NCBI GenBank assembly: GCA_030447315.1 | Contig: JAUJPD010000009.1 | Location: 36,140 to 70,591 of the forward strand | Direction: 5' to 3' | Source of the DNA: Actinomycetota bacterium | GTDB taxonomy: Bacteria; Actinomycetota; CADDZG01; WHSQ01 | Length of the DNA: 34,452 nt | In this document: positions 31,273-34,399 of the stretch, in pieces | How the letters are laid out: the number at the start of each line of letters is the position of its first letter | How positions within the stretch are numbered: position 1 is the first letter of the stretch | The notes under the pieces: generated by a model | The model's input: the letters and a program-made list of their open reading frames with translations, nothing else | Told to the model about the DNA's origin: nothing | Database searches by the model: none | Position numbers and translations under genes: made by a program

Positions 31273-32307
31273 ATGACCTGGACATCTCGGACGATCCTGT
31301 CGCTACTTGCTGCAGTGATGGTCGCGTCCGCCATGCCCGTGGCGCAGGCGCAGACCTCGCCGGTGCCGGACTGGGTGAAGCCGGCTCTGCGCTACCTCGT
31401 CGAGCAGGGTTACCTCGAGCGCGACAGCTTCCGCGCCAACCGATCGATGGATCGAGCCGATTTCAAGCGACTCATGAAAAAAGCCTTCGGGGGCGGCTAC
31501 ACCAGGGAGCGCGGGACGGTTCTGGCGGGAGAGGTGTCGGCGGCTCTGGTGCGGAAGCTCGGCAAGAGCTCGATCGCAAGCATGCTCACCGCCGCCGAAT
31601 CGCCCGACGGGTGGCAACCGAGCGTCGGTAGTCGGTTCGGCTCCGAGGTCGTTGCCCGCGAGCTGGGCCTTCGCCACGATCGACCGACCACCGAGGAGAA
31701 GTTCGAGGCCGCCGCCGGGCAACCGATGCGCCAGGCCGACATCGTGTGGGCGGTATGGAAAGCCAAGACCGCGCCGTCGCTGTATTCAGCGGACGCTCTG
31801 ACGGGCTTCGAGCTTGCCAACTACTCCGGCGAGCGCCGTCGAGTGCTGGGCTTCGCGCTCTCCCTGGTGGGAACGCCGTACGTGTGGGGGGGCGAGTGGC
31901 CGGCGCAAACCCACTCCGGCTACCCCTACGGAGCACAGCCCGCAGGCGGGATGGATTGCTCGGGATTCATCTGGTACGTGCTCCAGAAGAAGTCCTCCTC
32001 CTACTCCCCCATCGAGCGGCCTTACGACGGCTGGAGCATCCCGGAGCGCTCCTCGTACGACATGGCCGGAGCGATCCCGCGCGACCGGCGTCTGGGACTC
32101 AAAGAGCTCAGGCCCGCCGACGTGGTGTTCTTCGCGCCCGACGGCCGTGACGCCAAAGCGTCGAGCATCTATCACGCCGGCCTCTACCTCGGCAACGGTT
32201 GGATGGTCCACTCTTCTGGGAGCCGGGCCGGGATCAGCTTGGCGGAGATCGGCTCGGGCTCGTGGTGGAACGACCAATATGCGTGGGGCCGCCGCATCAT
32301 CAAGTAA
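31273..32307 (+). CDS. Secreted NlpC/P60 (C40) peptidoglycan hydrolase
   Basis: Cell-wall endopeptidase of 344 residues. A signal peptide (MTWTSRTILSLLAAVMVASAMPVAQAQ) is followed by an N-terminal region of about 155 residues that is helical and unfamiliar, perhaps an SLH-like or wall-anchoring part (RADFKRLMKKAF, then a long helical segment). The C40 domain begins at about 190: ALSLVGTPYVWGGEWP, the catalytic cysteine C229 in GGMDCSGFIWYV, the histidine H301 in IYHAGLYLGNGWMVHSSG, and a third polar residue in the same stretch. The chosen ATG gives the best signal peptide, but in-frame GTG codons at 31240 and 31249 are alternatives. A short hairpin (31245-31260) overlaps that leader. It is convergent with the L,D-transpeptidase fusion, both acting on peptidoglycan. 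Confidence 0.88.
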   Translation: MTWTSRTILSLLAAVMVASAMPVAQAQTSPVPDWVKPALRYLVEQGYLERDSFRANRSMDRADFKRLMKKAFGGGYTRERGTVLAGEVSAALVRKLGKSSIASMLTAAESPDGWQPSVGSRFGSEVVARELGLRHDRPTTEEKFEAAAGQPMRQADIVWAVWKAKTAPSLYSADALTGFELANYSGERRRVLGFALSLVGTPYVWGGEWPAQTHSGYPYGAQPAGGMDCSGFIWYVLQKKSSSYSPIERPYDGWSIPERSSYDMAGAIPRDRRLGLKELRPADVVFFAPDGRDAKASSIYHAGLYLGNGWMVHSSGSRAGISLAEIGSGSWWNDQYAWGRRIIK

Positions 32308-32360: not shown

Positions 32361-33650
32361 CTAGGTGCGGACGTAGAGGGGCATCCCTACCGGGTTGCGG
32401 TAGAAGAACTTCTTCTCCACGTAGCGAGGGATGCGCACGCAGCCGTGGCTGGCCGGATAGGTCGGGACCGAGTCGCTGCCGTGCACGGCATAGCCGCCGA
32501 CGAAGTAGTTGGGCCACCACAAGGTGCCGAGGCGGCTGACCCTCTTACCGGCGATCTTCCGCACGATGCTGAAGTCCCCCCGCGGCGTGTGTGCCTTGTA
32601 GGTCTCGCCGTCGACGGTGTAGTACTCCTCGTTGCCGCTGGAGATCGGAGTGGTGTGGCGGACCTTGCCGTCTCTGACCTCGAACATCACCTGGCGAGAG
32701 ATGTCGACGTGGACATATCTGTTGGGGCTACGCCGGGGGGCCTGCGGCGGACCGGTCTTGGCCAGCATGATCATCTCGCCCGGTGTCATCACGCCGTCAC
32801 GGGCCAGACGCTTGGTCTTCTGAAAGGCATAGGTCGCCTGGAGCGTGGCGTAGCCGAAGGAACCATCGGGCGCACCTGCTGGATAGGTTCCTCGGTTCAG
32901 GAGCTTCTGGAGATGTTTCACCTCGGCCCCCGTATTGCCCGGCCGCAGGGTGACGTCGTAGCGGATCGGGCGCACCTTGGTGAGACTTTCGATCGTGCGC
33001 AGCTCGAAGCCCCTGCGGCGGAGGCCACCGATGATCCCCTCGAGCGCCTTCCGATGGTTCTGGCGCCACAGATCCAACGACATGATGGATCCGGCGCGGG
33101 CTTGTCGCACGACGCGTCTCTTGACGGCCTTGGGCGAACCGGCCCCGGGACGGTAGGTCCAGTGGACCGAGCGGTATCCCATCGATCCCGCGATCCGAAG
33201 GACGCGGGCATCCCGGGCGTTCTGCGGCGCGCGCAGGAACGGGCGCGGGCGCTCTCCCACGTTCTGTAGGACGTTCTCGGCCCTCTGGATCGAGTTGCGC
33301 AGTTGCTCGTCCGACAGAGATGTGAACCGCTGGTCGCCGTAGCCCCTGTTACCGAGCGTGTGTCCGGCCGCCCGCGCTGAACGGGCCCTCTTCTTGTGGT
33401 GGCGGACCCAGTACCCCGGTAGGAAGAAGGAGGCCCGGGCGTTTCCATCTTTCAGGGTCTGAAGCACCTTCGAGAAGCCCTGGGGCTTGATCGCGCCGTT
33501 GAACGTGAGCATGACCACTCGCGCCTGGGGGCCGATCACCCATTCCGAGGGGGGATAGACCGCGGCCGCCCTCACGGGAGATGAGGCGGCCAGCAGGGCG
33601 CCGAGCTGAGCGCCGACCATGGCGGCAGCGAGCGTCTTCTTTGACCACAT
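32361..33650 (-). CDS. Degenerate polysaccharide-deacetylase domain fused to L,D-transpeptidase
   Basis: Exported wall protein of 429 residues. A signal peptide (about 1-30) is followed by a NodB-like deacetylase fold (45-225), a peptidoglycan-binding domain (238-285, with PDGSFGYATLQATYAFQ) and a YkuD transpeptidase domain (310-429). The transpeptidase is complete: H390 in YAVHGSD, and SHGCVRI at 401-407 with C404. It should make 3-3 crosslinks or attach proteins. The deacetylase part has lost its metal-site motifs: LTFDDGP reads LTFNGAIKP (48-56), and GNHTYSH reads GNRGYGD (100-106). This suggests a structural or glycan-binding role. The ATG at 33650 gives a good signal peptide; an in-frame ATG at 33668 is possible. 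Confidence 0.88.
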   Translation of the reverse strand: MWSKKTLAAAMVGAQLGALLAASSPVRAAAVYPPSEWVIGPQARVVMLTFNGAIKPQGFSKVLQTLKDGNARASFFLPGYWVRHHKKRARSARAAGHTLGNRGYGDQRFTSLSDEQLRNSIQRAENVLQNVGERPRPFLRAPQNARDARVLRIAGSMGYRSVHWTYRPGAGSPKAVKRRVVRQARAGSIMSLDLWRQNHRKALEGIIGGLRRRGFELRTIESLTKVRPIRYDVTLRPGNTGAEVKHLQKLLNRGTYPAGAPDGSFGYATLQATYAFQKTKRLARDGVMTPGEMIMLAKTGPPQAPRRSPNRYVHVDISRQVMFEVRDGKVRHTTPISSGNEEYYTVDGETYKAHTPRGDFSIVRKIAGKRVSRLGTLWWPNYFVGGYAVHGSDSVPTYPASHGCVRIPRYVEKKFFYRNPVGMPLYVRT

Positions 33651-33773
33651 ATGGGCGGAAGTGTACATAGCCGCCAGGGTCGACTGCGGGCTCAGGATCT
33701 TCAGCAGAGCAGGAGATCGAGATCCGACGACGAAATCACCGCCCAGCAGGGGGCCCATCACCCCAAACACCAG

Positions 33774-33778: not shown

Positions 33779-33784
33779 GTGCTC

Positions 33785-34399
33785 ATGAAGTCTCGCTCGG
33801 TTCGCACGCTGGCAGTCCTGGCCTCGGCCGGAATGATCGTGGGCGCGTTCGCCGCCGCCCCCGCCGACGCCGCCAAAAAGAAAAAGAAGCCGTTCAACTG
33901 CGCCCCCGCCACCGCCACCGCGCCGGCCAAGGGCCATTCCAGCAACGCCGCCGACGCGTCGAAGGCCGCTGTCGTCAACGTCACCGCTGCGGCAACCGCC
34001 GAGGCCCCTCTCGTGACCGAGTTCAAGCACGGTCCCGCCTTGTCCGAGGCTCACGCGGAGGACACCCAGTACTTCGCCTACCAGGTGGTCTCCAAGACCC
34101 CCGGCCAGGGCCTGTACGTCAAGTTGGAGTGGCCCGGCAAGATGAGCGACATCGACCTGTACATGTACGACGCTAGCGGCGAGGAGGTGGCACTGTCGGG
34201 CGCATTCAACCCGGTCGCCGTCCCCGGTTTGCTGGATTCCAACGGCAATGGAGGCGTGGGCTTCGAGACGATCCCCGGGTTCCCGGCCGACCCTTGCTCC
34301 CCTTACACGATCGAGAGCAAGGCGTACGCGACACCCGGCGAGCCCATGAAGATCTCGGTATGGCTGGGCGAGGCCACGGACAAGTACACCAAGCCGTAG
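33785..34399 (+). CDS. Small secreted protein with PPC-like beta domain
   Basis: Exported protein of 204 residues. The signal peptide (MKSRSVRTLAVLASAGMIVGAFAAAPADA) ends before a lysine-rich stretch (KKKKK). A low-complexity Ala/Thr/Pro linker follows, then a beta-sandwich-like region with YFAYQVVSKTPGQGLYVKLEWPGKMSDIDLYMYDASGEEVALSG. That region resembles bacterial pre-peptidase C-terminal (PPC) domains, which often ride on secreted proteases. Here the domain stands alone, so it could be a surface or wall-binding protein. Two cysteines (in FNCAP and DPCSP) may pair. The gene diverges from the transpeptidase fusion and ends in a strong terminator. Function is not known. Confidence 0.8.
   Translation: MKSRSVRTLAVLASAGMIVGAFAAAPADAAKKKKKPFNCAPATATAPAKGHSSNAADASKAAVVNVTAAATAEAPLVTEFKHGPALSEAHAEDTQYFAYQVVSKTPGQGLYVKLEWPGKMSDIDLYMYDASGEEVALSGAFNPVAVPGLLDSNGNGGVGFETIPGFPADPCSPYTIESKAYATPGEPMKISVWLGEATDKYTKP

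Follow-up and report, generated by a model that had tools for sequence, protein, structure and literature searches.

The window analysed here, a stretch of 34,452 nucleotides from an Actinomycetota bacterium (GCA_030447315.1, contig JAUJPD010000009.1), encodes a protein of 429 residues in which a NodB (CE4 polysaccharide deacetylase) fold, a PG_binding_1 domain and a YkuD L,D-transpeptidase domain share one reading frame. On the evidence of its motifs, the NodB half is a conserved CE4 pseudoenzyme, a conclusion which a previous, sequence-only reading of the same DNA had reached and which holds after two corrections, concerning motif MT3 and the second Asp of motif MT1. CE4 pseudoenzymes are a known kind of protein, as are multidomain L,D-transpeptidases; what is new is the covalent fusion of the former to a PG_binding_1–L,D-transpeptidase, an architecture which, as judged from the genomes sampled, is restricted to one lineage of little-known, uncultured Actinomycetota. 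The best explanation of the whole, to which we assign a probability of roughly 0.6, is that the protein is an L,D-transpeptidase carrying a conserved, non-catalytic CE4 barrel as a module for holding wall glycan.

Table 1. Positions of the fusion gene, its domains and its motifs in the window, and of DUF3105-like neighbours of fusion genes at other loci.
Feature	Position	Strand	Basis or remark
Whole gene P0001, (predicted) secreted pseudo-deacetylase–PG_binding_1–L,D-transpeptidase	32361..33650	-	8 full-length members in 7 genomes, window gene included
Signal peptide, residues 1-28	33567..33650	-	Read by eye: hydrophobic core, AxA-like site VRA|AA; low model pLDDT
NodB (CE4) fold domain, metal site lost, residues 32-228	32967..33557	-	Pfam PF01522; VIA-align
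MT1 remnant T49-F-N-G-A53 (canonical TFDDG / TFDAG)	33492..33506	-	NodB alignment
MT2 remnant N101-R-G-Y-G-D106, both metal His replaced (R102, D106)	33333..33350	-	NodB alignment
MT3 R140-A-P-Q-N144, Arg and Pro retained	33219..33233	-	NodB alignment
MT5 region M190-S-L-D193-L-W-R196-Q-N-H199-R200, His replaced by Asp	33051..33083	-	Fusion and NodB alignments
PG_binding_1 domain, residues 237-296	32763..32942	-	Pfam PF01471 match, residues 240-290
YkuD L,D-transpeptidase catalytic domain, residues 308-428	32367..32729	-	Pfam PF03734; 232-428 matches 4lpq
YkuD active-site motif S401-H-G-C404-V-R406	32433..32450	-	S401, H402, G403, C404 and R406 invariant in 8/8 fusions
DUF3105-like genes	L211:7865-8710, L005:110-952, L209:5442-6476, L210:8840-9511	same as fusion	Pfam for 2/4, similarity for the rest

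Domain architecture and predicted fold

The coordinates and strand that the sequence-only reading gave for the gene are correct; its two-domain description is incomplete, the PG_binding_1 domain lying between NodB and YkuD. All three Pfam matches exceed the curated cut-offs (Polysacc_deac_1, residues 42-161, E 3.4e-20; PG_binding_1, residues 240-290, E 1e-8, 35.7 bits vs a cut-off of 23; YkuD, residues 311-425, E 2.4e-14), and the architecture is therefore no chance result. Across the eight full-length fusions YkuD is over its cut-off in every case, and PG_binding_1 is under it in two (L005 and L006). Against the PdaB equivalog TIGR02764 (NCBIfam) the window protein scores 97.9 bits, under the cut-off of 237.4. 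The transpeptidase motif, which had been called a perfect SHGCVRI, is indeed intact, and H390, H402, G403, C404 and R406 are invariant across the alignment of the eight fusions.

The fusion product is probably exported, a conclusion that draws on N termini read by eye as signal peptides or as lipobox-like, the latter being LGASC in the homologues L007 and L008, where it stands in place of a signal peptide. An upstream in-frame ATG at 33668 would extend the N terminus of the window protein by six residues, and a search of the window for AGGAGG was of no help in choosing the start codon.

The AlphaFold2 model of the window protein (pLDDT 93.7, pTM 0.88) was made with a 53-row alignment, A2, comprising the eight fusions together with separate NodB and PGB–YkuD relatives. 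An earlier model, from the eight sequences, had a pLDDT of 68.5 and a pTM of 0.45, and its Foldseek list agrees with that of the better model. Structure prediction had been proposed as a check of the sequence-only reading, with a lack of similarity to NodB as the outcome that would tell against it; the NodB fold is plain in the model. The fold landmarks that had been said to remain do so, G79, W81, G96, N101, P142 and Y159 being conserved as in unfused relatives. VIA-align was run on the Foldseek list, Z differences within 1 being treated as ties. The NodB part aligns with 4m1b (BA0150, a PdaB-like protein of Bacillus anthracis) at Z 27.7 and rmsd 1.6 over 193 residues, with 4l1g at Z 27.3 and with 7bkf at Z 25.5; since the 4m1b score is tied with those of live CE4 enzymes, we claim no closer kinship to pseudoenzymes than to live enzymes. 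The PG_binding_1 and YkuD part (residues 232-428) aligns at Z 30.2, with 42% identity, with an L,D-transpeptidase of Xylanimonas (PDB 4lpq, residues 123-326), whose solved chain begins after residue 122.

Loss of the deacetylase motifs

Motif residues were counted in an alignment of 41 NodB domains, eight from fusions and 33 unfused, domains shorter than 170 amino acids having been dropped beforehand. None of the fusions has both metal-binding His residues of MT2, compared with 30 of the 33 unfused domains; taken singly, the first is retained in 1/8 fusions vs 31/33 unfused domains and the second in 0/8 vs 30/33. The MT5 His is absent from all eight fusions, its position being occupied by an acidic residue or Gln (Asp193 in the window protein), and is present in 30/33 unfused domains. 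The MT1 Asp is retained in 2/8 vs 29/33 (Asn51 in the window protein), the second MT1 Asp in 0/8 vs 19/33 and the MT3 Arg in 6/8 vs 29/33. Many different amino acids replace the motif residues in the fusions. The NodB half of the window protein thus has the fold of an active CE4 enzyme, but neither the Asp-His-His triad nor the catalytic Asp and His. A CE4 fold with lost catalytic motifs is found in 8/8 fusions, which form one clade and show purifying selection (see below). Consistent loss of the metal site among orthologues is what the pseudoenzyme proposal had predicted, and an orthologue with an intact site, named beforehand as contrary evidence, does not occur among the eight.

The individual substitutions described by the sequence-only reading fared unequally. 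Those of NHTYSH to NRGYGD, which replaces both metal His, and of LLHD to MSLD, which places Asp193 at the CE4 MT5 His, are borne out by the alignment. The change of RPPYG to LRAPQ is misregistered, the aligned motif being R140-A-P-Q-N, with the Arg and Pro of MT3 retained. For the change of TFDDG to TFNGA, the TFNGA is present, but the absence of the second Asp does not by itself mark a dead enzyme: it is common to the closest unfused relatives, which have TFDAG (or TFDAE) and, with the exception of L142, both His. The second Asp was probably missing before the fusion, i.e. its absence would be ancestral. Some enzymes, e.g. BsPdaA and BaPda, also lack it according to PMC5855634, and the inactive proteins in a table of that paper are without the MT2 His. 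Among the nearest to the fusions in the tree are unfused TFDAG NodBs of Actinomycetota (L194, L195, L030, L027, L200 and L207), which have the GRW/GKW and GN landmarks in common with the fusions but, unlike them, retain both metal His and the MT5 His. No YkuD was found in the NodB frame of L030 or L027 (by frame scan) or of L194 (by Pfam), the L194 protein carrying LysM.

Three unfused domains do not have both His: that of L142 and, in L183 and in L184, that of the second NodB protein. The L142 gene (1261-2199, +), an unfused NodB of G021, retains TFDAG but only the first of the two MT2 His, and has Glu at the MT5 His, possibly a halfway state. L183:2029-3357 (-) and L184:2022-3344 (-), from two genomes of the window's class (G021 and G016, respectively), encode proteins with a C-terminal NodB-like domain devoid of the catalytic motifs, situated in L183 after a glycosyltransferase group 1 match; each adjoins or overlaps a frame with a motif-retaining NodB.

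The CE4 pseudoenzymes in the literature surveyed are mainly from Bacillus. BA0150, like the window NodB, has the fold without the Asp-His-His triad; it is termed metal-less and a pseudoenzyme across passages of PMC6115787, PMC10967932 and PMC5855634, the second of which also calls it catalytically inert. It differs from the window protein in retaining the catalytic Asp and His, as a passage of PMC5855634 states, and its solved chain is a single NodB domain with no fused transpeptidase. BA3943 (PDB 7bkf, 6hpa and 6hm9) has the NodB fold and is a 'CE4 family pseudoenzyme' by PDB title; going by those titles it has no transpeptidase fusion, unlike the window protein. No description of a NodB–YkuD fusion was found in the open-access literature searched.

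It is very unlikely, in our view, that the NodB domain of the fusions is still an enzyme, either metal-free or with a different site. PuuE allantoinase, described in part of PMC10967932 as a NodB fold functioning without metal, keeps this possibility alive, and the invariant R196 and R200, the near-invariant H199 and the presence of Gln or an acidic side chain in place of the MT5 His would be compatible with it. However, no Asp, Glu, His or Cys is invariant at the catalytic positions of MT1, MT2 and MT5 in the eight fusions, and PuuE, according to the same part of that paper, retains the MT4 Asp and the MT5 His, the latter being lost from every fusion.

Distribution, descent and gene neighbourhood

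Full-length fusions, eight genes in all, occur in 7/61 genomes of the first survey, with two copies in G001. The same seven genomes account for the 7/16 genomes of the order and for the 7/396 genomes of a phylum sample, for which up to four candidates were scored per genome. NodB and YkuD are found in one frame only in the eight fusions among the ORFs of 159 loci (21 loci with duplicates). A single-sequence search of genome contigs found no relative of the window protein; an alignment-based contig search gave at least 80 loci, and the two full-length fusions among the matches listed, L038 (from the MAG of an uncultured actinobacterium) and L039 (from an Actinomycetota MAG), are the genes already counted in G007 and G009. 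The second copy in G001 (L032:435-1730, +) is more divergent, with ~50% identity to the window protein, and a second copy was looked for and not found in the window's own genome. A fusion with a live NodB was sought nearby among the candidates for which a locus was available, and the ORFs of these 159 loci contain none. Creation of the fusion by a missing stop or an assembly error is rejected in view of the occurrence of eight copies in seven genomes, forming one clade in both trees.

That clade has a support of 98/100 in the NodB tree and of 99 in the YkuD tree, and the groupings L001+L003, L005+L006 and L007+L008 are seen in both. The simplest reading would be a single fusion event followed by vertical descent, with which the presence of glpX near the fusion in G000, G001, G007 and G011 agrees. 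Conservation of the NodB codons falls from position 2 to 1 to 3 in all eight pairs listed; for the most similar pair that includes the window protein the values are 0.82, 0.73 and 0.42, respectively, 55 of 90 four-fold sites in NodB differ, and amino acid identity is 66% for NodB vs 83% for YkuD. The reading frames of all eight fusions are free of internal stops. As judged from these comparisons, the NodB half is under purifying selection and is less constrained than the YkuD half.

A PF01522 survey of 24 genomes of the class found no NodB other than the fusion genes in G000, G001, G007, G009 and G011, whereas G008 and G014 have further NodB matches besides the fusion. The other nine genomes of the order have unfused NodB only (seven) or no NodB (two); these absences are provisional, as completeness across the order's genomes ranges from 68 to 100%. 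The pattern suggests that part of one Actinomycetota order gave up NodB deacetylation yet retained the fold. The window's own genome has four YkuD genes.

An NlpC/P60 family wall-hydrolase gene (31300-32307, +) is convergent with the fusion gene in the window; NlpC/P60 adjoins the fusion in G000 and G001, and there is no clear counterpart beside the fusion in G007. A DUF3105-like gene lies upstream of the fusion in G001, G009, G007 and G011, and was not found beside the fusion in the window. Just beyond the window end on the same contig, at ~11590-11700 of L208, a run of unknown bases lies next to a secreted-protein gene (33779-34399), giving X in translations.

Possible roles of the NodB half

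We propose that the protein is an exported L,D-transpeptidase which would make or exchange 3-3 type peptide cross-links in peptidoglycan. One ancestral TFDAG-type NodB would have been joined to a PG_binding_1–YkuD protein, once within this taxonomic order, and would have lost its metal His pair, its MT5 His and, usually, its catalytic Asp, the barrel and groove-side landmarks then being retained as a non-catalytic module for holding wall glycan. Together, the NodB barrel and PG_binding_1 may dock YkuD on the glycan strand, close to the stem peptides that it would join. The sequence-only reading had likewise suggested a glycan-binding or spacing module that would position the cross-linking domain. 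Selection has maintained the dead half, probably so that it holds or positions the enzyme on wall sugars, and the covalent tie of a dead CE4 domain to a YkuD cross-linker names the activity that it probably serves. This fusion also makes the role testable by deletion of one domain.

BA0330 and BA0331 of B. anthracis are, according to PMC4505593, putative CE4 deacetylases with no activity detected which bind to purified peptidoglycan and lend stability to the wall, and their morphological phenotypes are complemented by versions without the catalytic Asp. Both are lipoproteins with an Fn3 domain, and BA0330 retains the metal and catalytic motifs, in each respect unlike the window protein. As they keep the metal motifs, the two proteins are a precedent for the proposed role and none for such motif loss.

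Against a glycan-holding role, the protein already has a dedicated PG_binding_1 for peptidoglycan binding, the MT1 Asp and MT3 Arg survive in 2/8 and 6/8 fusions, respectively, and NodB diverges faster than YkuD, as might be expected of a spacer under loose constraint. A barrel serving as a mere spacer, or persisting as a slowly decaying passenger with no binding role, would likewise accord with the variety of letters that replace the motif residues and with the other N-terminal regions on a number of the order's unfused L,D-transpeptidases, the one on contig C3 of the window's own genome being without a NodB match. Such a barrel is nevertheless unlikely given the purifying selection and the eight uninterrupted reading frames, and because newly invariant residues cluster where the motif loops used to be. 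These residues are G52, G103, R196 and R200; R196 and R200 are invariant in 8/8 fusions and H199 is present in 7/8, all three being absent from seven unfused relatives. Ten barrel positions are conserved in at least 7/8 fusions with a residue absent from those seven relatives, and the motif windows contain eight of these ten as against 6 of 24 shared conserved positions (Fisher p 0.006), a clustering that is suggestive only, as the windows were set after the positions had been seen and the rows are related.

Outside the barrel core the new invariants are P34, E36, W37 and G40, with R230 and D232 in the linker to PG_binding_1. They could be interdomain contacts, and the pTM of 0.88 suggests that the domains are held in a fixed arrangement, as might be expected were NodB to regulate the transpeptidase by gating, by autoinhibition or by docking a partner protein, with no glycan binding of its own. 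A synteny comparison found no partner gene beside the fusion common to all genomes, which argues against this proposal, and we consider it improbable.

The emptied pocket might have been rebuilt as a recognition site (G52, G103, R196, H199 and R200) which reads glycan acetylation or local structure and so gates or places 3-3 cross-linking. We offer this tentatively and rate it as possible but doubtful; if true, a hydrolase active site would have been turned into the sensor of a cross-linking enzyme, and this in a lineage several of whose genomes seem to be without a live NodB deacetylase.

The same domain types are also found unfused: G055 has a separate NodB gene in which the metal and catalytic residues are intact (L024:846-1436, +), convergent with a separate PGB–YkuD gene (1501-2103, -).
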